Positions 27,421 through 54,017 of a stretch of DNA of 64,000 nt are shown here, in pieces. The translations under genes were made by a program, and so were the position numbers. Positions within the stretch are counted from its first letter, which is position 1; every line of letters starts with the position of its first letter. Below the pieces are notes generated by a model. It saw only the letters and a program-made list of their open reading frames with translations. It ran no database searches and was not told the origin of the DNA. Origin of the DNA: Acidibrevibacterium fodinaquatile (GTDB lineage Bacteria; Pseudomonadota; Alphaproteobacteria; Acetobacterales; Acetobacteraceae); assembly GCF_003352165.1 (NCBI RefSeq), contig NZ_CP029176.1, forward strand, positions 1,302,001 to 1,366,000, given 5' to 3'.

Positions 27421-28641
27421 TCAGCGCGGCTCCAGCCGCCATAGCCCGACGTCGACGCGGCCGGCACGGAACCCGGCCTCGCAATAGGCGAGATAATAAT
27501 CCCACAGCCGGCGGAACCGCGGCGGGAAGCCCATCGCCGCGATCGCCGGCCAGGCGGTATGGAACCGCGCCCGCCAGGCGGCCAAGGTGAGGGCATAGCT
27601 GTCGCCGAAGCTTTGGCGCGCCCGCACCGCCAGCCCGTGGCGTTGCGCAAGCGCCGCGATCGTCCCCGGCGAGGGCAGCATCCCGCCTGGAAAAATGGCG
27701 TGCTGGATGAAATCGGTGCCGCGGCGATAATCCTCGAACCACGCGTCGGCGATGGTGATCGCCTGCAGCACGGCGACGCCCCTTGGGGCGAGGCGCGCGC
27801 GCAGCGTCTCGAAATAGAGGGGCCAGTAGCGCTCACCCACCGCCTCGATCATCTCGACCGAAACGATACGATCGAAGCGGCCATCGACATCGCGATAATC
27901 CTGCAATCGCAGATCGGCGCGCGATGCTAAGCCGGCTTGCGCCAAGCGCGCGGTCGCATAGTGCAACTGCGCCGGTGATAGCGTGAGTCCGGTGACGCGC
28001 GCGCCGGCGGCGGCGATGCGCTCGGCCAGCCCGCCCCAGCCGCAACCGATCTCGAGCGCATGCTGGCCGGGGCCGAGATCGAGCAACGCCAAGACCCGAT
28101 CCTGCTTTTCTGTCTGCGCGGCTTCCAGCCCGGCCACCGGATCGACCGCCGGATCGGTGTAGATCCCCGAGGAATAGCTCATTCCCGGATCCAGCCATTG
28201 CGCGTAAAAATCGTTGCCGAGATCGTAATGCGCCATGATGTTGCGCCGGCTGCCGGCGCGGCTATTGGCGTGGGTGAGATGGCGCAGCCGGTGCCACAGC
28301 CGGGCCGGCCACGGGCCGCCACTGGCGCCGGGGATGCGCGCCATATTGCGCGCGGCGAGGTCGAGCAACGCTACCGGATCTGGGCTCGACCAATCCTGAT
28401 CGATATAGGCCTCGGCGAAGCCGATGTCCCCGCCGGTCGCCAGCCGGCGCAGTGCGCGCCAGCGATGCAGCACCAATACCGCCTCAGGTCCCGGCTCCGC
28501 GCCAACATGGCGCACACGCGCGCCGCCCGGCAGGATCACGGTCAGCGTGCCCGCCGCGATCCTACCCAGCGCGCGCGCAAGCAGCGCCGGGCCGGGAGAG
28601 AGGAACCAGGGCGCCGGTCCGGCGAGGGTACGACCGCTCAC
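27421..28641 (-). CDS. cfa: Cyclopropane-fatty-acyl-phospholipid synthase, canonical type
   Basis: A 406-aa SAM-dependent enzyme that adds a methylene or methyl carbon to double bonds of membrane phospholipid acyl chains. The SAM site is ALEIGCGWGGLAERIA. The catalytic region IVSVEMIEAVGERYWPLYF and the C-terminal YYLAYCEAGF with Cys387, equivalent to the active-site Cys of E. coli CFA synthase, are present. It ends a three-gene leftward operon (FAD oxidoreductase, DUF1365, cfa) and overlaps the DUF1365 gene by 4 nt. A second, divergent Cfa-like protein is encoded on the other arm of the locus. Confidence 0.93.
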   Translation of the reverse strand: MSGRTLAGPAPWFLSPGPALLARALGRIAAGTLTVILPGGARVRHVGAEPGPEAVLVLHRWRALRRLATGGDIGFAEAYIDQDWSSPDPVALLDLAARNMARIPGASGGPWPARLWHRLRHLTHANSRAGSRRNIMAHYDLGNDFYAQWLDPGMSYSSGIYTDPAVDPVAGLEAAQTEKQDRVLALLDLGPGQHALEIGCGWGGLAERIAAAGARVTGLTLSPAQLHYATARLAQAGLASRADLRLQDYRDVDGRFDRIVSVEMIEAVGERYWPLYFETLRARLAPRGVAVLQAITIADAWFEDYRRGTDFIQHAIFPGGMLPSPGTIAALAQRHGLAVRARQSFGDSYALTLAAWRARFHTAWPAIAAMGFPPRFRRLWDYYLAYCEAGFRAGRVDVGLWRLEPR

Positions 28642-29417
28642 GCGACCCTCCCCGGCAGGACGATGCTGACAGGCTCAGCCGGTGGCGGCGGGCGCGGGCG
28701 CACGCGCATTCCCTTGCCCCAGAGCTTCGCCGCCTCCCAATGGATCGCACCCAACACCTGGGCGGCGAGCAGGGGATGGCGCAGGAAGCCGCGTAGCAGC
28801 GCGCCGTCCGTCAGGGGCTCGCGCCGCGCCGCAAGGCCAGCGGTCAGGACCGGGCCGGTTGCGTCGCGGACTTCGATCGCCACACCCAGCCTCTCGCTCG
28901 GCGGGATCAGCCGAAAACGGTAGCGCAACGCCATGTCCATGAAGGGAGAAACATAAAAACCCTTCGCGCATTCCTGGCGGATCGGCAGACCGGGCCCCGC
29001 GACCGGGATCAGGTAGCTATGGCGCTGGCCGAACGTGTTGTTGACCTCATACAGCACGGCGCAGAGCGCACCCGAGCGCGCGTGGCAGAAGAAGATGCTG
29101 AGCGGGTTGAAAACGCTGCCCAACACGCGCGGCATCGCGAGTAGGCGGATCGGCCCGCCATCGGGGGTGATCCCCGCCGCGGTTAGCGCCGCCTCCACTT
29201 GCGCGCGCAGACTGCCAGCGCCGGGCACCAGATGATCGCGCTCGGCGAAGCCGAACAGATTGAACCGATCAACGGAAAACAGCCGCAGCCGCCGCGCCAG
29301 CGCCGGGATTTCGTCGAGGTCGAGCAGCAGCGTCATCATCCGGTAGCGCAACCGGTGCCGCACCGGGCGCATGCGGGTATGCACCACCGTGCCGGTATAA
29401 AGCGCCGAGATGCTCAT
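28638..29417 (-). CDS. DUF1365 family protein
   Basis: A 259-aa protein of unknown function. Family landmarks are ALYTGTVVHTRMRPVRHRLRY, the Asn/His-rich FNPLSIFFCH, YEVNNTFGQRHSYL and KGFYVSPFMDM. DUF1365 genes are commonly found between an FAD oxidoreductase and a Cfa-family methyltransferase, as here. A role in acyl-chain modification is therefore likely by context but not proven. It overlaps both neighbours by 4 nt. Confidence 0.9.
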   Translation of the reverse strand: MSISALYTGTVVHTRMRPVRHRLRYRMMTLLLDLDEIPALARRLRLFSVDRFNLFGFAERDHLVPGAGSLRAQVEAALTAAGITPDGGPIRLLAMPRVLGSVFNPLSIFFCHARSGALCAVLYEVNNTFGQRHSYLIPVAGPGLPIRQECAKGFYVSPFMDMALRYRFRLIPPSERLGVAIEVRDATGPVLTAGLAARREPLTDGALLRGFLRHPLLAAQVLGAIHWEAAKLWGKGMRVRPRPPPPAEPVSIVLPGRVA

Positions 29418-30742
29418 GCCGCCGACACCTGCGTCTCAGAGGGGAGCGGCAAACGGTCTGACGGGTTGGCGACGCGCCAGGGCCGGCGCACCCCGCCCAA
29501 CGCCTCGGCAACGGCGAGGCCGGCCTGCACCCCGTCTTCATGGAACCCGGCCCCGAACCAAGCGCCGCAGAACCAGGTGCGGCGCTGCCCCTGCAGCGAC
29601 CACAGGTCGCGCTGGGCGCGCAAGGCCGCGGCATCAAACAGCGGATGATCGAAATGGGCACGGTGCAGCACGGTTTCGGGCGCCGGCGGGCGCACCGGGT
29701 TCAGCGTCACGAACACCGGCCCGGCGCCGGGGATATGCTGCAAACGGTTCATCCAGTAGGTCACGCAGAGCGCATCATTCGCGGCGGCGCCGATATAGTT
29801 CCAGCTCGCCCAGACCCGCCGGCGCCGCGGCATCAGCGTCGGATCACGGTGCATCACGGCTTCGTTGCGGGTGCTGCCTACCGCGCCCAGCAGCGCCACC
29901 TCCGCGGCCGAGGGATCGGCGAGCAGCGCCAGGGCCTGATCGGCGTGGGTTGCGATGACGACGTGATCGTAGCGGGTTTCCTCGCCGTCGGCGGCACGCA
30001 GGGCAACGCCGTCGGGCAAGCGCCGGATGGCGCGGACGGGGCAGTTCAGGCGGATTGCGGCGGCGTAGGGCGCGGTCAGGCGCCGGACATATTCGCCGCT
30101 CGCGCCGACCACGCTCCGCCATTGCGGGCGGTCGCGCAGCAGCAACAGCCCGTGATTCTGGCAAAAACGGATGAATGCCAGCGCCGGATAGGCGGCGATG
30201 CGCTCGGCCGGCGCCGACCAGATCGCGGCAGCCATCGGCAGGAGGTGATCGCGCGCGAATTCCGGCCCATAGCGACGCGCGGCGAGATAGGCGCCGAGCG
30301 TGGTGTCCGGGTCCAAATGCCGCGCATCCGCCGCGGCCTCGCGGTAAAAGCGCAGGATGTCGCGCAGCATCGCCCAGAAACGCGGGCGGACGAGATTGCG
30401 CCGCTGCCCGAACAGCCCGGCGAGTTCAGTCCCGGCATATTCCAGCCCGCCACCGCGCAAGGAGACCGCGAATGACATGTCAGACGCGTGCGTCGGCACG
30501 TCGAGATGCTGAAACAGCGCGGTCAGGTTCGGGTAGGCCGGCGGATTATAGACGATAAAGCCCATATCCACCGGCACCTGGCCGGCAACGCCCGGCACCG
30601 CGACGGTGTAGCTGTGCCCGCCCGGCCGCGAGGCGCTTTCATAGATCGTGACGTCATGGGCGGGATGGAGCAGCCAGGCCGCCGCCATTCCCGAGATGCC
30701 CGTTCCCACCACCGCAACCCGCAGCCGCGCCTTGCCCCGCAT
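29414..30742 (-). CDS. FAD-dependent oxidoreductase (flavin amine oxidase/desaturase-like)
   Basis: A 442-aa flavoprotein. The N-terminal FAD fold VVGTGISGMAAAWLL is followed by YESASRPGGHSYT, the second FAD-contact motif of the amine oxidase/phytoene desaturase superfamily. The start at 30742 places this fold next to the N-terminus; the frame is open 42 codons further but would cross the promoter. A relative encoded with a cfa gene belongs to the Rhodobacter sphaeroides RpoE regulon. By context it probably acts on a fatty-acyl chain, for example as a desaturase. It is the first gene of the leftward operon. Confidence 0.85.
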   Translation of the reverse strand: MRGKARLRVAVVGTGISGMAAAWLLHPAHDVTIYESASRPGGHSYTVAVPGVAGQVPVDMGFIVYNPPAYPNLTALFQHLDVPTHASDMSFAVSLRGGGLEYAGTELAGLFGQRRNLVRPRFWAMLRDILRFYREAAADARHLDPDTTLGAYLAARRYGPEFARDHLLPMAAAIWSAPAERIAAYPALAFIRFCQNHGLLLLRDRPQWRSVVGASGEYVRRLTAPYAAAIRLNCPVRAIRRLPDGVALRAADGEETRYDHVVIATHADQALALLADPSAAEVALLGAVGSTRNEAVMHRDPTLMPRRRRVWASWNYIGAAANDALCVTYWMNRLQHIPGAGPVFVTLNPVRPPAPETVLHRAHFDHPLFDAAALRAQRDLWSLQGQRRTWFCGAWFGAGFHEDGVQAGLAVAEALGGVRRPWRVANPSDRLPLPSETQVSAA

Positions 30743-30770
30743 GTGCCTTGCTACCTGTGCTATCCGGACG

Positions 30771-30800
30771 CAACTACGATCTGCCCGCCGCGTTGGATCA
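30771..30800 (-). promoter_or_regulatory. Predicted RpoE(ECF)-type promoter for the FAD-DUF1365-cfa operon
   Basis: On the minus strand, -35 TGATCC (30800-30795) and a -10-like TAGTTG (30776-30771) are separated by 18 bp. The Rhodobacter RpoE consensus is TGATCC, about 18 bp, then TAAGA. The -35 is exact and the -10 is partial. It lies 29 bp before the FAD oxidoreductase ATG, in the right orientation. Confidence 0.6.
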
Positions 30801-30820
30801 CCGCGCCAGCCGTGATCCAA
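30793..30820. promoter_or_regulatory. Inverted repeat formed by two back-to-back ECF -35 elements
   Basis: TTGGATCAC at 30793-30801 and GTGATCCAA at 30812-30820 are perfect 9-bp inverted arms, 10 bp apart. Each arm holds the TGATCC -35 of one of two diverging promoters, with identical flanking AA. Both arms of the locus would thus be recognised by the same sigma factor. Confidence 0.7.
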
Positions 30821-30841
30821 TGCGCCCGGGTCTGCGTAAGA
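30813..30841 (+). promoter_or_regulatory. Predicted RpoE(ECF)-type autoregulatory promoter for sigma-chrR
   Basis: TGATCC (30813-30818), an 18-bp spacer and TAAGA (30837-30841) match the promoter recognised by the R. sphaeroides singlet-oxygen sigma factor RpoE at both elements. The transcript would start near 30848, about 75 nt before the sigma ATG. This argues against the in-frame ATG at 30847 as the true start. Confidence 0.7.
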
Positions 30842-30921
30842 GGGGCATGTATGTTTCACGCCAATCATGGGCGGTGCGACGAACGGCCGAGGCGGGCTCG
30901 CTCTGGCCGGGGGCCGACGCC

Positions 30922-31479
30922 ATGACCCATATGTCGGGGGAGACCTCGCACGCGGCCCTGATCCGCGTCGTCGCGATCAGCCGCGACCGCGCGGCGTTCG
31001 CCGCGTTGTTCTCGCACTACGCCCCCCGGATAAAATCCTTCCTGCAACGGCGCGGCGCCGATGCCGCAACCGCTGAAGAACTGGCGCAAGAGGCTTTGCT
31101 CGCGGTCTGGCGGAAGGCGGCGCAATTCGACCCCGGCCGCGCCACCGCCGGCGCCTGGATCTTCGCGATCGCGCGCAACCTTCATATCGACTGGCAGCGC
31201 CGCGCCCGCCGTGCGGTCCCCGCGCCAGACCCTACCGACGATCCGTCGCCGGACGCATCGGCCGATGACGTGTTGGCGGCCGACCAACGCGCCCGCCGCC
31301 TGCACGACGCCATCGCCGCCCTGCCGGCAGAGCAGTCGGAGGCCCTGCGCCTTGCCTATTTCGACGAACGTTCGCACAGCGAGGTGGAGACCGCGCTCGC
31401 GATCCCGCTCGGCACCGTGAAATCGCGCCTGCGTTTGGCCATGGCCCGGTTGCGCGCGGCGCTGGGAGAGGACACATGA
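30922..31479 (+). CDS. rpoE: ECF RNA polymerase sigma factor, RpoE/ChrR-partner type
   Basis: A 185-aa group-4 sigma factor. Region 2 (about residues 25-95) contains FSHYAPRIKSFLQRRG, EELAQEALLAVWRKAAQFDP and AWIFAIARNLHIDWQRR. Region 4 (about 125-180) contains LPAEQSEALRLAYFDERSHSEVE and LGTVKSRLRLAMARLR. The next gene encodes a ChrR-type zinc anti-sigma factor, overlapping by 4 nt (ATGA), which places it with the Rhodobacter RpoE group. A matching promoter upstream suggests autoregulation. Frames open further upstream (30748, 30847) but precede or coincide with the predicted start point. Confidence 0.9.
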   Translation: MTHMSGETSHAALIRVVAISRDRAAFAALFSHYAPRIKSFLQRRGADAATAEELAQEALLAVWRKAAQFDPGRATAGAWIFAIARNLHIDWQRRARRAVPAPDPTDDPSPDASADDVLAADQRARRLHDAIAALPAEQSEALRLAYFDERSHSEVETALAIPLGTVKSRLRLAMARLRAALGEDT

Positions 31480-32090
31480 TCAACCATCATCCAGCCGAGG
31501 CGAGCCTGATCGCCTGCGCCGCCGGCACCATGCCTGTGGCGCATGCGCGGGTGATCGAAGCCCATGCCGCGCTCTGTCCGGTTTGCGCGTCCGGCCTGCG
31601 CGCCGCCGAGGCCGCCGGCGGCGCCCTGTTGGAGGCGCTGCCGCCGGCACCGATGGCGCCTGACGCGCTCGCCCGGGCGCTGGCGCGGCTCGACGCGGCG
31701 GCGCTCGAATCGGCACCCGCCGCGCCGGCGTTCGACCTCGCCGCCCTTGCCTCCGGGCGCTGGCGCCGTGTCGCGCCCGGCATCGCGATCATGAAGCTGC
31801 AGCCGCGCGACGCGACCGACAGCCGGCTCGATTTGATCCGCGTCGCTCCCGGCCGCGCGCTATTGACCCATGGCCATACCGGCCCCGAATCCACCTGCGT
31901 TCTGTCTGGCGCCTTTTCCGACGGCATCGGCACTTTCGCGACCGGCGATTTCATGGCGGCCGACGCCGCCCTCGACCATACCCCGCGCGCCTTGCCGGGC
32001 GAGGACTGCATCTGCCTGATCGCCACCACGCATCATCTGCGCCCGCATAGCTGGCTCGGCCGGCTGGTGCGCCCATTGCTCGGGATGTAG
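31476..32090 (+). CDS. chrR: ChrR-type zinc anti-sigma factor with cupin sensor domain
   Basis: A 204-aa cytosolic anti-sigma factor predicted to hold the ECF sigma factor inactive until singlet oxygen or organic peroxide triggers release. The N-terminal anti-sigma domain has His5, His30, Cys34 and Cys37, matching the zinc ligands H6, H31, C35 and C38 of R. sphaeroides ChrR. The C-terminal cupin (about residues 110-190) keeps the HGHTGPE metal motif and a later His in DHTP, as in the ChrR cupin. It overlaps the sigma gene by 4 nt and is 4 bp from the esterase gene. Confidence 0.92.
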   Translation: MINHHPAEASLIACAAGTMPVAHARVIEAHAALCPVCASGLRAAEAAGGALLEALPPAPMAPDALARALARLDAAALESAPAAPAFDLAALASGRWRRVAPGIAIMKLQPRDATDSRLDLIRVAPGRALLTHGHTGPESTCVLSGAFSDGIGTFATGDFMAADAALDHTPRALPGEDCICLIATTHHLRPHSWLGRLVRPLLGM

Positions 32091-32094
32091 CGCG

Positions 32095-32946
32095 ATGTCG
32101 GCCATCCTCGCGTCACCCGCGCGGGCGCGCGGCGGGTTCGCCGTCGACCTGCTGAACCGGCTGTCGCCGCGGCGTGGCGTCACGATACGGGAGGGCGTGG
32201 CGTATGGCCCGGGGCCGCGGCATCGGCTGGATGTCTATAGCCCGGCCCGCGCCGCGGCCGCGGCGCCCGCCCCGGCGGTGGTGTTCTTCTATGGTGGCGG
32301 CTGGGAGGAAGGCGATCGCGGCATTTATCGTTTCGTCGGGGCGGCGTTGGCGGCGCGCGGCATCCTGACCCTGGTGCCCGACTATCGCTTGTATCCCGAG
32401 GTCCGCTTCCCCGCCTTCATCGAAGATGCTGCCGCCGCCGTCGCCTGGGCGCGGTCGTTCCTCACAACGCTGGGCGGCGATCCGGGACGGTTATTCCTGA
32501 TGGGACACTCCGCCGGCGCGCAGATCGCGACCCTGCTGGCGCTCGATCCAAGCTATCTGCGCGCGGCGGGGATGGCGGGGGGGCGCCTCGCCGGCGTGAT
32601 TGGCCTTGCCGGCCCGTATGATTTTCTGCCGCTCCGCAGCCCCACCCTCAAGGCGATCTTCGGCCCCGAGGTGGACTGGCCGGTGAGCCAGCCGATCACC
32701 TACGCCTCCGCTGCGGCGCCGCCGATGCTGCTCGCGGCCGGCACGGCGGACCGGGTGGTCGATCCCGGCAACACCGAGCGCCTGGCGGCGCGGCTGCGCG
32801 CGGCGGGAGCAACCGTGGAGATGCGGCTCTATCGCGGCCTCGGGCATCGCGTGCTGATCGGCGGTTTCGCCTCGGCGCTCGCGCCATGGCTGCCGGTGCG
32901 ACGCGAGGCGCTGCGCTTCATCGCGCAGGGCGGGGGCGCGGCATGA
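32095..32946 (+). CDS. Alpha/beta hydrolase (HSL/BD-FAE-like esterase)
   Basis: A 283-aa serine hydrolase. The oxyanion motif is YGGGW, a variant of the hormone-sensitive-lipase HGGG. The nucleophile elbow is GHSAGA, and the late acid and base are likely in AGTADRVVDP and GLGHR. No signal peptide is seen, so it is probably cytosolic. It sits third in the sigma-chrR operon and overlaps the DUF1295 gene by 4 nt. Context suggests an acyl-ester or damaged-lipid substrate; this is inference. Confidence 0.85.
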   Translation: MSAILASPARARGGFAVDLLNRLSPRRGVTIREGVAYGPGPRHRLDVYSPARAAAAAPAPAVVFFYGGGWEEGDRGIYRFVGAALAARGILTLVPDYRLYPEVRFPAFIEDAAAAVAWARSFLTTLGGDPGRLFLMGHSAGAQIATLLALDPSYLRAAGMAGGRLAGVIGLAGPYDFLPLRSPTLKAIFGPEVDWPVSQPITYASAAAPPMLLAAGTADRVVDPGNTERLAARLRAAGATVEMRLYRGLGHRVLIGGFASALAPWLPVRREALRFIAQGGGAA

Positions 32947-33719
32947 TCGTGCTCGCGGTTACGGCCGGGTTGTCGCTGGCGATGATGCTGGCTTGGGTGG
33001 CGCAACGGCGCACCGGCAACGCCGGTTGGGTGGATGTGATCTGGACCTTCGCCCTCGGGGCTGCCGGGGTCGTTTACGCGCTGGTAGCGGGCGCGGCCGG
33101 GCCGCGCGACTGGTTGGTGGCGGCGCTCGCGGCACTCTGGGCGCTGCGGCTCGGTATTTACATCCTCCGTCGCACCCGCCACGGCGCCGAGGATGCCCGC
33201 TATGCGAAGCTACGCGCCGAATGGGGGGACGCGTTTCAGCGCCGCATGTTCGGCTTCCTGCAGATCCAGGCGGCGGTGGCGGCGGTGCTGGCGCTCGCCA
33301 TAGGGCTCGCGGCACGCAATCCCGCCCCGCTCGGCCTGCGCGATGCGGCCGGTGTCGCGGTGTTCCTGATCGCGATCCTGGGTGGCAATGCCGCCGACGA
33401 GCAGCTTCTGCGTTTCCGCCGCGACCCGGCCAATCGCGGGCAGGTCTGCGCCGTCGGGCTGTGGCGTTGGTCGCGCCATCCGAATTATTTCTTCGAGTTC
33501 CTCGCCTGGTGCGCGTGGCCGCTGCTCGCGATCTCCGCCGCCCATCCCCTGGGCGCGCTGGCGCTGGTCGCGCCGGCGGTGATGTATGGGGTGCTGGTGC
33601 ATGTCTCGGGCATTCCACCGCTCGAGGAGGCGATGCTGCGCTCGCGCGGCGATGCCTATCGCGCCTATCAGGCCCGCACCCGACCGTTCCTGCCGCTGCC
33701 GAAATGGAGCCACAAATGA
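32943..33719 (+). CDS. DUF1295 (steroid 5-alpha-reductase-like) membrane protein
   Basis: A 258-aa polytopic membrane protein with about 6-7 helices. The C-terminal signature GLWRWSRHPNYFFEFLAWC, and ending RTRPFLPLPKW, is typical of DUF1295/ICMT-like enzymes that bind NADPH or SAM near the membrane. Family members are thought to reduce lipid double bonds or methylate lipids, but its reaction is unknown. It has 4-nt overlaps with both neighbours, so it belongs to the sigma-chrR operon. Confidence 0.9.
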   Translation: MIVLAVTAGLSLAMMLAWVAQRRTGNAGWVDVIWTFALGAAGVVYALVAGAAGPRDWLVAALAALWALRLGIYILRRTRHGAEDARYAKLRAEWGDAFQRRMFGFLQIQAAVAAVLALAIGLAARNPAPLGLRDAAGVAVFLIAILGGNAADEQLLRFRRDPANRGQVCAVGLWRWSRHPNYFFEFLAWCAWPLLAISAAHPLGALALVAPAVMYGVLVHVSGIPPLEEAMLRSRGDAYRAYQARTRPFLPLPKWSHK

Positions 33720-34744
33720 ACCTGGTCGCCGCCGCCACCGGCGCTGTCGAGCGCTTGCCGCTGCCGGATGCCTTGACCCGGGCCGGGATCGCCATGCTGG
33801 TAGAGCGGACCAGCCGGCGTCTCGACCGCGCCCCGCCGGAGGCCGAGCGCGCGTTCGCGCGGCGCATGCGCGCCTACCCGATCGCGCGGACGCCCGAGGC
33901 CGCCAATGCGCAACATTACGAGCTGCCGGCCGAATTCTTCGCGCAGGTGTTGGGCGCGCGGCGCAAATACTCCTGTTGTCTCTATGACGAGGGGGCCGAC
34001 ACGCTGGACGCGGCCGAGGAGCGCGCGCTCGCCGCAACCGCCGCCCATGCCGAACTCGCCGACGGGCAGCGGATCCTCGAACTCGGCTGCGGCTGGGGAT
34101 CGCTGACCTTGTGGATGGCCGAACGCTATCCGAACGCGAAGATCGTTGCCGTCTCAAACTCCGCTCCGCAACGGGCGTTCATCGAGGCGGCGGCGAGGGC
34201 GCGCGGCATCGCCACTGTCGAGGTCATCACCGCCGACATGAATCACTTCGAGCCCGCCCGCCCGCGGTTCGATCGCGTGGTTTCGGTGGAGATGTGGGAG
34301 CATATGAGCAACTGGCGCGCGCTGCTGGCGCGTGTGCATGGGTGGCTTGAACCAAATGGGCGGCTGTTCCTGCACGTCTTCAGCCACCACGCGGTGCCCT
34401 ATGTTTTCGACCATGAGGACCGGGCCGACTGGATTGCGCGGCATTTCTTCACCGGCGGGATCATGCCGAGCCACCGCCTGATCCGCCAATGGGACGAGCA
34501 CTTCACGCTGGAAGCCGACTGGCGCTGGAGCGGATTGCACTATCAGCGCACCGCCAATGACTGGCTGGCCCGCTATGACGCGAACGCGGCCGCGATCGAC
34601 CCGATCCTGCGCGCCGTTTATGGCCGCGAGGCGGGGTTGTGGAAGCGCCGCTGGCGCCTCTTCTTCCTCGCCACCGCCGGCCTGTTCGGGGCGCGCGAGG
34701 GCCGCGAGTGGGGCATCAGCCATTATCGGCTGCGGCCACGATGA
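33716..34744 (+). CDS. Second Cfa-family SAM-dependent methyltransferase, atypical active site
   Basis: A 342-aa protein related to cyclopropane synthases and to coclaurine-type N-methyltransferases. The SAM motif is ILELGCGWGSLTLWMA, followed by VVSVEMWEHMSNW and FFTGGIMPSH. The C-terminal block reads FFLATAGLFGAREGREWG. Thr320 stands where canonical enzymes, including the other Cfa of this locus, have the catalytic Cys. It probably transfers a methyl group to a lipid or other substrate without ring closure. The start overlaps the DUF1295 stop (ATGA), and its stop overlaps the next gene. Confidence 0.88.
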   Translation: MNLVAAATGAVERLPLPDALTRAGIAMLVERTSRRLDRAPPEAERAFARRMRAYPIARTPEAANAQHYELPAEFFAQVLGARRKYSCCLYDEGADTLDAAEERALAATAAHAELADGQRILELGCGWGSLTLWMAERYPNAKIVAVSNSAPQRAFIEAAARARGIATVEVITADMNHFEPARPRFDRVVSVEMWEHMSNWRALLARVHGWLEPNGRLFLHVFSHHAVPYVFDHEDRADWIARHFFTGGIMPSHRLIRQWDEHFTLEADWRWSGLHYQRTANDWLARYDANAAAIDPILRAVYGREAGLWKRRWRLFFLATAGLFGAREGREWGISHYRLRPR

Positions 34745-35286
34745 CGCTCCGCGCCGCAATGCGCGCCTATGGCTCGCATCCCGATCCGGTGACGGCGGTC
34801 GCGTGTTTCGTCGCGCTGGTTTTGGGGGCGAACGGGCCGTTCTACCCGCTCTATGTCATCGCGCTGGTGGGCTGGGCGCGCGGCCACGCGGCCTTCCTGA
34901 CCATGGGGGCGATGCCGCTATTCCTCGCCGTCCCGGCGCTGGCGCGCTGGCAGCCGGGCGTGGCACGCGTGGCGCTGTGGTTGGTCGGCACGGTGAACAC
35001 GGTATGGTGCATGAAGCTGCTGGGGCCGGAGACGGGCGTCGGGCTGTTCCTGCTGCCCTGCATCGCGCTCGCCGCACTGCTTTCCGGGCGGCTATTGACC
35101 CTGGCTGCGGCCGGCCTGCCGATCCTGCCGTTGCTGATCCCGGTCGCGGCGTTCGGGCAGCCGATCATGGCGCTGACGCCGGCGGAGGACGCACGGCTCG
35201 CCGCGCTGAACGGTTTCAGCGCGGCGTGCCTGATGGGGCTGATCGCATTGCGGCTGGCCGGCGTGCTGCGCGGCTCGGACGCCTAG
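34741..35286 (+). CDS. Small polytopic membrane protein of unknown function
   Basis: A 181-aa hydrophobic protein with 5-6 predicted helices; I do not recognise a named family. It has charged loops of the type RGSDA at the C-terminus and a Pro-rich fourth helix LPILPLLIPVA. It starts inside the stop codon of the atypical methyltransferase gene (ATGA), so it is the last gene of the sigma-chrR operon. Its TAG stop codon coincides with the first three bases of a 106-bp MITE-like repeat, so the insertion may have set or altered its C-terminus. Confidence 0.7.
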   Translation: MTLRAAMRAYGSHPDPVTAVACFVALVLGANGPFYPLYVIALVGWARGHAAFLTMGAMPLFLAVPALARWQPGVARVALWLVGTVNTVWCMKLLGPETGVGLFLLPCIALAALLSGRLLTLAAAGLPILPLLIPVAAFGQPIMALTPAEDARLAALNGFSAACLMGLIALRLAGVLRGSDA

Positions 35287-35424: not shown

Positions 35425-36903
35425 TCACCGGCTGCGGGTGCGAGCGACCGCGTCGCGCCAGCCGTGCCATTTGCGTTCGCGCGCCGCCGGATCGAGATGC
35501 GGCGTGAACCGACGATCGAGCGCCCAGGAACGCGCAAACGTCTCCGGCGCCGGCAGAACGCCCGAAGCCAAGCCGGCGAGATAGGCGGCGCCGAGCGCCG
35601 TCGTCTCCATGATCTTCGGCCGATCGACGGGCGCGTCGAGAATGTCGGCGAGAAATTGCATCGTCCAGTCAGAGGCGGTCATGCCACCATCGACGCGCAG
35701 CACCGTCTGAGCCGCGCCCGGCCAATCCGCCCGCATCGCCTCGATCAGCTCGCGGGTCTGGTAGCCAACGCTTTCGAGTGCGGCGCGCGCGAGTTCCTTG
35801 CGCGTGGTGCCCCGCGTCAGGCCGAAAATCGCGCCGCGCGCGCCGGCGTCCCAATGGGGCGCGCCAAGGCCGACGAAGGCGGGCACCAGATAGACGTCCT
35901 GCGCGGGATCGGCCGCCGCCGCAAGCTCGCCCGCCTCGCCGGCGGCGGCGATCAGCCGAAGCTCATCGCGCAGCCATTGCACCGAGGCGCCGGCGACAAA
36001 GATCGCGCCTTCGAGCGCGTAGGTGCGCCGGCCGTTCAATTGATAGGCGATCGTCGTCAGCAGCCGGTTTTTCGAGGCGACCGGCTGATCGCCGGTATTG
36101 AGCAGCGCGAAGCAGCCCGTGCCATAGGTCGATTTCAGCATGCCGGGCGCGAAACAGGCTTGTCCCACGGTCGCCGCCTGCTGGTCGCCGGCGACGCCGC
36201 GAATGGGCAAAGCGCGGCCGAAGAGATCAGGCGTCGTCGTCCCGAAATCACCGGCGCTGTCGCGCACCTCGGGCAGTAGCGATAGCGGCACGTCAAAGGC
36301 GGCGCAAAGCGCCTCGTCCCAGGCGCCGCGATGGATGTCAAAGAGGAGCGTGCGCGAAGCGTTGGTCGCGTCGGTTGCGTGAACGGCGCCGCCGGTGAGC
36401 CGCCAGATCAGAAAACTGTCAACGGTGCCGAAGGCAAGCTCTCCGGCCGCGGCGCGCGCGCGCGCGCCCTCGACGTGATCGAGCAGCCAAGCGATTTTGG
36501 TGCCTGAGAAATAGGGATCGAGCAGCAGCCCGGTCTTTTTGGTGATCATCGGCTCGAGACCCTGGGCCTTGAGCGCCGCGCAACGCTCGGCGGTGCGCCG
36601 ATCCTGCCAGACGATGGCGGGCGCGATCGCCTGGCCGGTCTTGCGGCTCCAGAGGATTGTCGTCTCGCGCTGGTTGGCGATGCCGAGTGCCGCGATTTCG
36701 TCGACCGAGACGCCGGCGAGTGCTTCGCGCAGCGTCGCGACGGCGCTCCGCCAGAGATCCTCGGGGTCGTGCTCGACCCAGCCGGGCTCTGGGTAATGCT
36801 GCGGAAATTCCTGCTGCGCGACGGCGGCGACGCTGACATCGTGGCGGAACAGGATCGACCGCGTCGAGGTGGTGCCTTGATCGAGTGCAAGCAGATAGGT
36901 CAT
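35425..36903 (-). CDS. glpK: Glycerol kinase
   Basis: A 492-aa FGGY-family kinase that phosphorylates glycerol to glycerol-3-phosphate. The N-terminal phosphate loop is [15 protein letters not shown]. The glycerol-binding [15 protein letters not shown] and NQRETTILW, the [13 protein letters not shown] segment and the C-terminal FGGY signature [19 protein letters not shown] are intact. It ends a long minus-strand operon and overlaps glpD by 4 nt. Confidence 0.97.
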
Positions 36904-38435
36904 CGCGCATTTCCCCGCTGCGCCTCACGCGGGCGCGTTTGCGCCATGAAGGCGTCGAGTTCGGCCGCCTCGGCGGCGCTCATCCTAAGCCCAAGCTTGG
37001 TGCGCCGCCACAATATGTCTTCGGCGTTGCGCGCCCATTCGCGCGCCATGAGATAGCCGACCTCCGCCTCGCTGAGATCGGCGCCAAAGCCACGCCCGAG
37101 ATCGGCGCGGCTTCGTGCCTCTCCGAGAACGCGCGTCGCCAGAACGCCGTAGGTCGAGACCAGCCGCTCGGCGGCGCGCGCGTCGAGAAAATCATAGCGC
37201 GCGGCAAGGTTGCGCGCGAGTTCGGCGCGGCCGGTGACGGGAAAATCGCCGCCTGGCAGCGGCGTGCCCGCCGTCCACGGCGCACCGCACGGCCCAAGAT
37301 GAGGCGCGAGCTTCTTCAGCGCCGCCTCCGCCAGCCGGCGATAGGTGGTGATCTTGCCGCCGAACACCGACAGCAGCGGCGCCGTCGCGACGCTGGCGTC
37401 GAGGTCGAGAACGTAATCGCGGGTCGCGGCTTTCGCTTCGCTCGCGCCATCGTCATAGAGCGCGCGCACGCCGGAAAATGCCCAGATCACGTCATCCGGC
37501 GTTATCGCTTGCGCGAAATAATCGTTGGTCGCGGCGCAGAGATAGGCGATCTCGTCGGAGGTTGCGCGCGCTTGCGCGGGATCGCCGTGATAGTCGCGGT
37601 CGGTGGTGCCGATCAGCGTGAAATCGCGCTCATAGGGAATGGCGAAAATGACGCGGCCGTCGCCATTCTGGAAGATGTAGCAGCGATCGTGATCGTAGAG
37701 GCGGCGCACGACGATGTGCGAGCCCTGCACCAGCCGCGCTTTCGCCTGCGCCGTTGTGCGCAGCGTATCGGCGAGCACGTCGGCGACCCAGGGGCCAGCG
37801 GCGTTGATGAGCGCTTTGGCGTGGATCGTGCGCGCCGCGCCGGCGGCGCCAGACCCCCGCACCGCAAGCCGCCAACCATCGCGGCCGCGTTCGGCGCCGA
37901 TGGCCTGCGTGCGGGTCTCGATCACCGCGCCGCGGTCGGCGGCGTCACGCGCGTTGAGCACGACCAGCCGCGAATCATCGACGCGGCAATCGGAATATTC
38001 GAACCCACGATGAAACAGGCCAGGCTTCAGCGGCGCGCCGGCGGCGTCGCGATCGAGATCGAGCACCCGCGTCGGCGGCAACAGGCGCCGGCCGCCGAGG
38101 TGATCATAGAGAAACAGCCCGAGCCGCAAGAACCAGGCGGGCCGTAGCCCGGCATGATGCGGCAGCACGAAACGCAATGGCGCAATGATATGGGGGGCGG
38201 CGCGCCACAACACTTCGCGTTCGATCAGCGCCTCGCGCACCAGACGGAATTCGTAATATTCGAGATAACGCAAGCCGCCATGCACGAGCTTGGTCGACCA
38301 TGACGAGGTGCCGCTGGCGAGATCGCCCTGCTCGCACAGATAGACCGACAAGCCGCGCCCGGCGGCGTCGCGAGCGATCCCGCAACCATTGACGCCGCCG
38401 CCAATGATCGCGAGATCGTAGGACGGCGCACTCAT
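36900..38435 (-). CDS. glpD: Glycerol-3-phosphate dehydrogenase, aerobic FAD type
   Basis: A 511-aa membrane-associated flavoenzyme that oxidises glycerol-3-phosphate to dihydroxyacetone phosphate, feeding electrons to ubiquinone. The FAD fold [36 protein letters not shown] and [15 protein letters not shown] are characteristic. The ATG at 38435 is used instead of a TTG four codons upstream. It lies 28 bp after the esterase gene and overlaps glpK. Confidence 0.97.
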
Positions 38436-38463
38436 CGTTGGACGCAAAGACCAGCGCTGTGCC

Positions 38464-53889: not shown

Positions 53890-53968
53890 TGCGCGAGGCC
53901 ATGCCTTGCGCTTTCTTGGACGTTTCCTCCCTAAACTTGGCGGCCTTTCCGGCCGCCATTTTTTTTTT
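53890..53968 (+). ncRNA. Predicted MmgR/ar8-like small RNA, about 79 nt
   Basis: A short transcription unit in the 228-bp gap between pcaB and putA. It contains the pyrimidine-rich motif TTTCCTCCCT (53923-53932), probably unpaired and complementary to ribosome-binding sites. A terminator with a perfect 7-bp GC stem and 10 Ts follows directly. Size, motif and terminator resemble MmgR (ar8 family, about 77 nt) of Sinorhizobium, which limits polyhydroxybutyrate accumulation. I did not run a covariance search; family placement is by pattern recall. Confidence 0.6.
53939..53968 (+). terminator. Strong Rho-independent terminator of the small RNA
   Basis: GGCGGCC / GGCCGCC stem with loop TTTCC, then A and ten Ts. 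It is the clearest intrinsic terminator in the window and would form the 3' end of the predicted small RNA. Confidence 0.9.
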
Positions 53969-54017
53969 GCGCAATCGCCGCCGCGGCGTAACGCGAGGGC
54001 TGGCCGCCGCCGGCGGT

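Follow-up and report, generated by a model that had tools for sequence, protein, structure and literature searches.

Gene content of the locus

An extracytoplasmic function (ECF) sigma factor, a ChrR-type anti-sigma factor and a set of lipid-modifying enzymes occur together in a nine-gene locus of Acidibrevibacterium fodinaquatile, within a 64,000-nucleotide stretch of contig NZ_CP029176.1 (positions 1,302,001 to 1,366,000; hereafter the window). The genes form two diverging arms (Table 1), as the original prediction, made from the sequence alone, had it: all nine open reading frames (ORFs) are open at the coordinates listed, and eight of the nine match the families named for them in profile searches. 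Judged by these matches, sensor, regulator and lipid enzymes do share one locus, an ECF11-type sigma-ChrR lipid-modification module, and we argue below that it is very probably a self-regulated pair of furan fatty acid operons working through the steps proposed at the end of this text. The likely starts are 30742 for UfaD, 30922 for the sigma factor and 33716 for FufM; were UfaD to begin at an alternative, longer ORF start (30868), both promoters would fall inside the ORF.

Table 1. Features of the locus, with predicted roles and the matches behind them (window coordinates).
Feature	Position	Strand	Predicted role	Match or motif
ufaM	27421..28641	-	S-adenosylmethionine-dependent acyl methylase, first furan fatty acid step	CMAS E 3.3e-76
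ufaO (DUF1365)	28638..29417	-	O2-dependent furan-forming enzyme	DUF1365 E 7.4e-80
ufaD	29414..30742	-	Flavin adenine dinucleotide (FAD)-dependent acyl desaturase	Amino_oxidase E 1e-24; NAD_binding_8 E 1.6e-15
Putative leftward promoter	30771..30800	-	Sigma-ChrR promoter	TGATCC-N18-TAGTTG
Putative rightward promoter	30813..30842	+	Sigma-ChrR promoter	TGATCC-N18-TAAGAG
ECF sigma factor	30922..31479	+	RpoE (ECF11) type	Sigma-70 r2/r4; SigE 2q1z_A closest structure
chrR	31476..32090	+	Zinc anti-sigma factor with cupin domain	Cupin_7; TIGR02451
Alpha/beta hydrolase	32095..32946	+	Esterase, accessory	BD-FAE and Abhydrolase_3
DUF1295 membrane protein	32943..33719	+	Steroid-reductase superfamily	DUF1295 E 1.4e-68; Steroid_dh E 5.6e-7
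fufM-type methylase	33716..34744	+	Second methylation, dimethyl furan	CMAS-like E 1.1e-39; XCP FufM candidate
Membrane protein	34741..35286	+		Weakly MASE7-like, E 0.086

The sigma-ChrR pair and its promoters

Among solved structures, the sigma factor is closest to SigE of Rhodobacter sphaeroides (2q1z_A, E 3.2e-40), followed by SigK (E 4e-23). The product of the adjoining gene scores above the TIGR02451 ChrR model (148.7 bits against a cut-off of 124.5) and below a second ChrR model, NF051881 (149 bits against 300). Aligned to 2z2s and 2q1z, the protein keeps all eight of the zinc ligands listed for ChrR (PMC6852236), namely H5, H30, C34 and C37 in the anti-sigma domain and H132, H134, E138 and H168 in the cupin, which bears out the earlier call of a ChrR with zinc ligands and cupin motif. 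Two cupin residues are reported to be needed for the singlet-oxygen and organic-peroxide responses of R. sphaeroides ChrR; the same review of the ECF11 group counts furan fatty acid genes in its core regulon and describes a ChrR loop, in that R. sphaeroides mutants without furan synthesis genes do not raise sigma activity under singlet oxygen (PMC6852236). Elsewhere in the host genome (G000:C1:3046740-3047360) lies a second protein with two matches to Cupin_7, the ChrR cupin.

Between ufaD and the sigma gene lie two outward-facing TGATCC-N18-TA sites (30800-30775 on the minus strand, 30813-30838 on the plus strand), and these strengthen the claim that both arms answer to a single shared control point. 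They are the only such sites in the window, where 0.46 would be expected; six of 100 whole-window shuffles reached two, in any place or orientation. One motif reported for this sigma type is TGATC-N16-18-CGTAW (N18 in the body text; PMC5241685). Set against this consensus, which is from Vibrio cholerae, both gap sites read TGATC-N17-CGTA, the rightward one matching fully and the leftward one ending in G instead of A/T. Across the genome TGATCC-N18-TA occurs 36 times (reversed control, 5) and TGATC-N17-CGTA 19 times (reversed control, 1). Three of the other 17 sites of the latter form (L200, L204, L214) have a same-strand ORF start within 220 bases, in a rough scan that took ORFs of at least 100 amino acids and that is weak, drawing over-long ORFs across both divergon sites. 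Inspection of two further exact sites in the genome revealed no obvious target gene. On these counts the sigma regulon may or may not be confined to the locus.

The left arm resembles a furan fatty acid operon

UfaM, UfaD and UfaO convert cis-vaccenoyl chains to the furan fatty acid 9M5-FuFA, their three genes being sufficient for the monomethyl product, and in R. palustris the genes RPA2571-2570-2569 (ufaD-ufaO-ufaM) carry out the same conversion; UfaO, shown in both R. sphaeroides and R. palustris, contains DUF1365 (PMC7380195). The left arm has the same D-O-M order as R. palustris XCP (L192), with identities of 50% (UfaD), 49% (UfaO) and 49% (UfaM); orthology is thus based on the XCP sequences, not on those of R. 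sphaeroides or CGA009. Because UfaO contains DUF1365, and given this order and identity, the DUF1365 protein, earlier listed as a step without a role, can be assigned, and the left-arm protein taken for a canonical Cfa is better regarded as UfaM. Consistent with this, a tree of 54 proteins places the window and XCP UfaM proteins in one branch (support 99/97), apart from RPA3082-like proteins.

A cyclopropane or methyl-branched product, with two ordinary Cfa synthases and the FAD and DUF1365 proteins as accessories, would be another reading of the CMAS matches on both arms. The solved structures nearest to the left-arm protein are indeed Cfa synthases, and the authors of the Stenotrophomonas maltophilia study discussed below name both of their proteins as such (PMC11832516). 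Four observations nevertheless make this reading very unlikely: the left-arm protein groups with UfaM rather than with the RPA3082-like proteins, so that cyclopropane is not the expected product; the D-O-M order is that of a cluster with demonstrated furan fatty acid synthesis (PMC7380195); the right-arm protein falls on the other side of a fully supported branch (100/100); and both proteins stay below the NCBIfam Cfa equivalog cut-off of 400 bits (best 225.9 for the left, 150.9 for the right). A cyclopropane module is thus disfavoured by the UfaM and FufM affinities of the two CMAS proteins.

The right-arm methyltransferase groups with a FufM candidate

The dimethyl furan fatty acid of R. palustris is made by FufM (RPA0924), which is 26% identical to UfaM; it methylates 9M5-FuFA in vitro and makes the dimethyl form both in vitro and in R. 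sphaeroides (PMC7380195). A further R. palustris protein, RPA3082, is 38% identical to UfaM, and its deletion gave no significant change (PMC7380195). A CMAS scan of strain XCP returned three matches above 100 bits (309.7, 291.0 and 140.8); of five lower-scoring ones, none above 43.6 bits, two still passed the Pfam cut-off. The three are UfaM (L192), an RPA3082-like protein (L191; 37% identical to the window UfaM) and, by elimination the FufM candidate, a protein (L190; gene at G100:C25:30820-31521) that is 57% identical to the right-arm METHYLTRANSFERASE of the window. The latter is 26% identical to XCP UfaM, the same figure as published for FufM and UfaM. In the midpoint-rooted tree, one side of the 100/100 branch holds 31 FufM-like proteins and one plant coclaurine N-methyltransferase, the latter on a long branch and of odd composition, and the other side holds 22 proteins, 20 of them UfaM-like and two RPA3082-like. 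The 'atypical methyltransferase' that had been left unassigned groups with the FufM candidate and is predicted to be a dimethyl furan fatty acid methylase.

The plant sequence in this clade raises the question of whether the right-arm enzyme might instead N-methylate an amine or a lipid head group. Its nearest solved structures, like those of the XCP candidate, are plant coclaurine N-methyltransferases, with pavine N-methyltransferases also close (E 8.6e-59 against 4.7e-30 for Cfa), and the sole plant enzyme in the tree falls within its clade, albeit on the long branch noted above. Arabidopsis AT4G33110, too, is coclaurine N-methyltransferase-like. Yet FufM itself is reported to be 37.87% identical to AT4G33110 (Omata et al., PMC10940516), and the XCP candidate shares the plant affinity although FufM acts on 9M5-FuFA in vitro. 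Moreover, alpha-, beta- and gammaproteobacteria alike carry the fufM-type gene together with ufa genes. We thus consider an N-methyltransferase very unlikely, and an acyl methylase of the FufM type the better prediction.

The DUF1295 partner

The neighbouring DUF1295 protein is still, as originally listed, a step without an assigned role. Orthologues were called at E below 1e-50 for DUF1295 and, for FufM, at E 1.9e-114 or better (21 genomes) with the addition of a 70%-identical contig-end fragment (G007), cut-offs that were set after seeing the lists. Some CMAS-like match occurs in 93 of 100 genomes, the next best after the FufM cut being at E 2.8e-29. On these cut-offs DUF1295 occurs in the same 22 of 100 relatives as FufM and in none of the 78 others; six FufM-less genomes have weaker matches (G068 at 1.1e-39, G097 at 1.6e-35, and G081, G077, G060 and G062). 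Fisher p-values throughout ignore kinship. In 30 of 31 loci the DUF1295 gene is the immediate upstream neighbour of fufM (genome loci 20/21, opened plasmids 5/5, Rhodopseudomonas 5/5), the exception being G053, where the two are on different contigs. The pair is present in five of six Rhodopseudomonas genomes. In the sixth, R. rhenobacensis, no FufM-type protein scores above 100 bits, and DUF1295 is represented only by a weaker paralogue (106.5 bits) of a type also present in the other Rhodopseudomonas genomes. The wider DUF1295 family occurs regardless of FufM, for example in three of 14 control genomes.

What might such a partner do? Among the papers listed in searches of the open literature, none linked DUF1295 to FufM, and the term 'DUF1295' is absent from the main texts of PMC7380195 and PMC10940516. 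An obligatory helper of UfaO or FufM is an unlikely candidate: the ufaM, ufaD and ufaO genes are sufficient for the monomethyl form, and FufM makes the dimethyl form in vitro and in R. sphaeroides (PMC7380195). DUF1295 was added in neither setting, and the methylation itself can probably do without it. The family matches would fit a reductase. The window protein matches Steroid_dh at 30.1 bits (cut-off 22.6), as do all 18 aligned DUF1295 homologues at E 0.01 or better (best 6.5e-10). In that alignment D152 and N181 are invariant, E185 is kept in 16 of 18 members and R159 in 11 of 18; by SRD5A numbering these presumably align to the Asp, Asn, Glu and Arg that contact reduced nicotinamide adenine dinucleotide phosphate (NADPH). 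An ICMT-like methyltransferase is the competing assignment, favoured by a profile of the 18 homologues that fits the ICMT structure 4a2n (E 4e-4) better than steroid 5-alpha-reductase 7c83 (E 3.8e-3) and by ICMT matches in 10 of the 18 members. Set against the uniform Steroid_dh matches and the presumed NADPH site, R159 being its least conserved position, we regard it as possible but doubtful. A single-sequence AlphaFold model (mean predicted local distance difference test score 54.9) was too poor for fold comparison, and a search of viral contigs for extra DUF1295 sequences for structure prediction found none.

Ene-diones are formed when singlet oxygen attacks furans, and steroid 5-alpha-reductases reduce enones. 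Together with the tie to FufM, this chemistry suggests that DUF1295 reduces such products: its substrate probably arises in the FufM branch, and we propose, more specifically, an NADPH-dependent enone reductase acting on compounds derived from the furan fatty acid.

Conservation across genomes and plasmids

DUF1365 was found in 47 of 100 relatives and in 21 of the 22 that have FufM, the exception being G084, a genome that is 86% complete; this is as expected if FufM acts on the product of UfaO. Twenty-one genome loci were compared, the window and L040-L059. Wherever ufaD lies in the stretch it is head-to-head with the right arm (17/17); L048, L051, L055 and L059 lack ufaD in the stretch taken and were excluded from the promoter count. 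Twelve of the 17 loci carry the sigma-chrR pair, eight of them with both exact promoters and two with one exact and one single-mismatch site. No exact site occurs in the five loci without the pair, one of which (L058) has two one-mismatch sites; L057 and L058 have a different sigma gene in the stretch, 35-36% identical. Fisher tests between loci with and without the pair, uncorrected for kinship, give p 0.003 when one exact site or more is counted and 0.03 when the exact pair is required.

Plasmids also carry the cluster. Five of 44 FufM-matching plasmid records were opened, along with one DUF1365 record. The nearest counterpart is plasmid NZ_CP044217 of Mesorhizobium terrae (L067), whose nine genes, the esterase among them, match those of the window in kind, order and orientation; it differs in being typed as mobilizable and in having an exact TGATCC match at the rightward promoter only. 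The cluster is flanked by genes for MsrP and fasciclin proteins and, following the nine genes, for DUF2177, DUF2147, lipocalin and heme-binding proteins. Several of these resemble entries in the Chlamydomonas singlet-oxygen list described below; DUF2177 occurs in three of the six opened plasmid loci. Plasmids of Rhizobium tropici, Shinella and Caballeronia have rearranged versions with sigma and anti-sigma genes. An Acinetobacter piscicola plasmid (L066) has the enzyme cluster without sigma-ChrR, adjoining a histidine kinase gene, and is possibly under another control system. The Azospirillum plasmid encodes a sigma factor, a cupin protein and ufaDOM, with no DUF1295 or FufM in the stretch.

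Turning to the remaining right-arm genes, 12 of the 21 genome loci have the esterase in their right arm, and L057 has it elsewhere in its stretch. The last gene, 34741..35286, has no family match at E 0.001 in profile searches; nine of the 11 proteins in its alignment hit the membrane sensor domain MASE7 with E no higher than 0.1 (2.2e-10 for the strongest), and a membrane-sensing role is possible. To the right of the locus (35425-38447) lie ORFs that, judged from their translation alone, resemble glycerol kinase and glycerol-3-phosphate dehydrogenase. Farther along the window (53903-53973) is an Rfam suhB/mmgR small RNA match (47.1 bits).

Comparison with known systems

The RpoE-ChrR (ECF11) system of R. 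sphaeroides shares with the window the sigma factor, ChrR with its zinc ligands, UfaD and UfaO, and, by locus tags, a ufaD beside rpoE. It differs in that ufaM (RSP2144) lies elsewhere and the ufaD-ufaO operon also includes RSP1087-1089, whereas in the window ufaM is in the left arm and the esterase, DUF1295, FufM and membrane protein genes follow chrR. The original picture of scattered R. sphaeroides targets thus holds for ufaM and fails for ufaD (RSP1091) and rpoE (RSP_1092), which are neighbours. R. palustris XCP has the left-arm order of the window and its fufM candidate directly behind a DUF1295 gene, as in the window, but the two halves are on separate contigs; in the two stretches (15-16 kb), neither window sigma nor chrR has a match above 50 bits.

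Lipid genes divergent from a sigma-ChrR operon have been published before, for Stenotrophomonas, so the locus type is known: in S. maltophilia, rpoEc-chrR-chrA is divergent from a lipid cluster, smlt2375-2367, eight genes of which (2367-2374) are raised 165- to 507-fold in a chrR mutant (PMC11832516). As in the window, a sigma-anti-sigma operon faces away from lipid genes, which encode two CMAS proteins and an FAD oxidoreductase and are strongly sigma-dependent; there, however, the lipid genes are on one arm and include a desaturase and a lipocalin, and the likeness is one of described gene content. The main text of that paper contains neither 'furan' nor 'DUF' (PMC11832516).

A more distant parallel comes from Chlamydomonas, where 104 singlet-oxygen genes depend on SAK1 and the published list (Table 5) includes CFA1, CFA2, DUF1365 and DUF1295, as well as DUF2177, SOUL heme-binding and fasciclin entries; CFA2 (Cre09.g398700) is annotated as a coclaurine N-methyltransferase (Table 9; PMC4067076). 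This is a eukaryote with a different regulator and separate locus numbers, and the parallel is one of annotation alone. A 2021 review mentions tests under way by its authors for fatty acid modification of this sort in Chlamydomonas (PMC8491031). One could speculate, at long odds, that DUF1295, as a member of the steroid 5-alpha-reductase superfamily, is a membrane-bound, NADPH-using enone reductase and clears by reduction the reactive ene-dione from singlet-oxygen-quenched dimethyl furan chains, that FufM-DUF1295 is a quench-and-repair unit which bacteria share with green algae, controlled by sigma-ChrR in the former and by SAK1 in the latter, and that plant alkaloid N-methyltransferases derive from this lipid-stress methylase family.

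Inducing signal and points against a furan fatty acid module

The host genome encodes two Photo_RC proteins (PufL/PufM type; G000:C1:3276428-3278108), suggesting that the organism is probably an anoxygenic phototroph, and because of these reaction-centre genes it probably has its own source of singlet oxygen, which would then be the signal for the locus. Another oxidant, such as superoxide or an organic hydroperoxide, might be the trigger instead, with the lipid product changing the membrane generally; the Caulobacter system responds to organic hydroperoxides too (PMC6852236), and the Stenotrophomonas phenotype given next points to superoxide. The reaction-centre proteins argue the other way, as do the eight conserved ChrR ligands, which include the two cupin residues for the singlet-oxygen and organic-peroxide responses, and a trigger of this other kind seems to us rather unlikely.

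Several observations weigh against a self-regulated furan fatty acid operon pair answering to singlet oxygen. In S. maltophilia, rpoEc-chrR-chrA mutants are unchanged in singlet-oxygen tolerance and changed in superoxide tolerance (PMC11832516). FufM was assigned by elimination through the XCP candidate, as a stand-in for RPA0924. Two of the 12 sigma-carrying genome loci (L045, L047) have no exact promoter site, and among the five opened sigma-bearing plasmid loci only those of Shinella and Azospirillum have the exact promoter pair in the expected gap. Finally, coupling to sigma-chrR is not obligatory, because five loci keep the enzymes without a local pair.

Proposed mechanism and significance

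We propose the following model, in which gene identities, promoter sites, ligands and conservation were computed here, and sigma-ChrR control, the chemistry of UfaM, UfaD, UfaO and FufM, and the ChrR-turnover loop are taken from relatives. In unstressed cells zinc-bearing ChrR would hold the ECF11 sigma factor. ChrR would be lost on exposure to an oxidant, for which singlet oxygen generated by the photosynthetic pigments of the cell is the likeliest candidate, and the freed sigma factor would fire both back-to-back TGATCC-N18-TA promoters, the right arm yielding more sigma factor, ChrR and the late enzymes, and the left arm UfaD, UfaO and UfaM. UfaM would methylate cis-vaccenoyl chains in phospholipids, UfaD introduce a second double bond, UfaO close the furan ring with O2, and FufM add the second methyl group to give the dimethyl furan. 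These furans would scavenge singlet oxygen and, if needed for ChrR turnover as in R. sphaeroides, close a positive loop. DUF1295, the near-constant neighbour of FufM, would probably reduce one of the products made in this branch. Its part, like whatever part the esterase and the membrane protein may play, is inferred, as is the operation of the whole scheme in A. fodinaquatile.

If this model holds, some 8 kb of DNA would bring the regulator together with, as judged by homology, every step of the route to dimethyl furan fatty acids. Related clusters sit on named plasmids, and a pathway so compact should be easy to move and to test. The context of DUF1295 is likewise sharpened, to FufM-bearing genomes and an oxidative-stress lipid module, so that its function may be within reach of a few direct enzyme assays.

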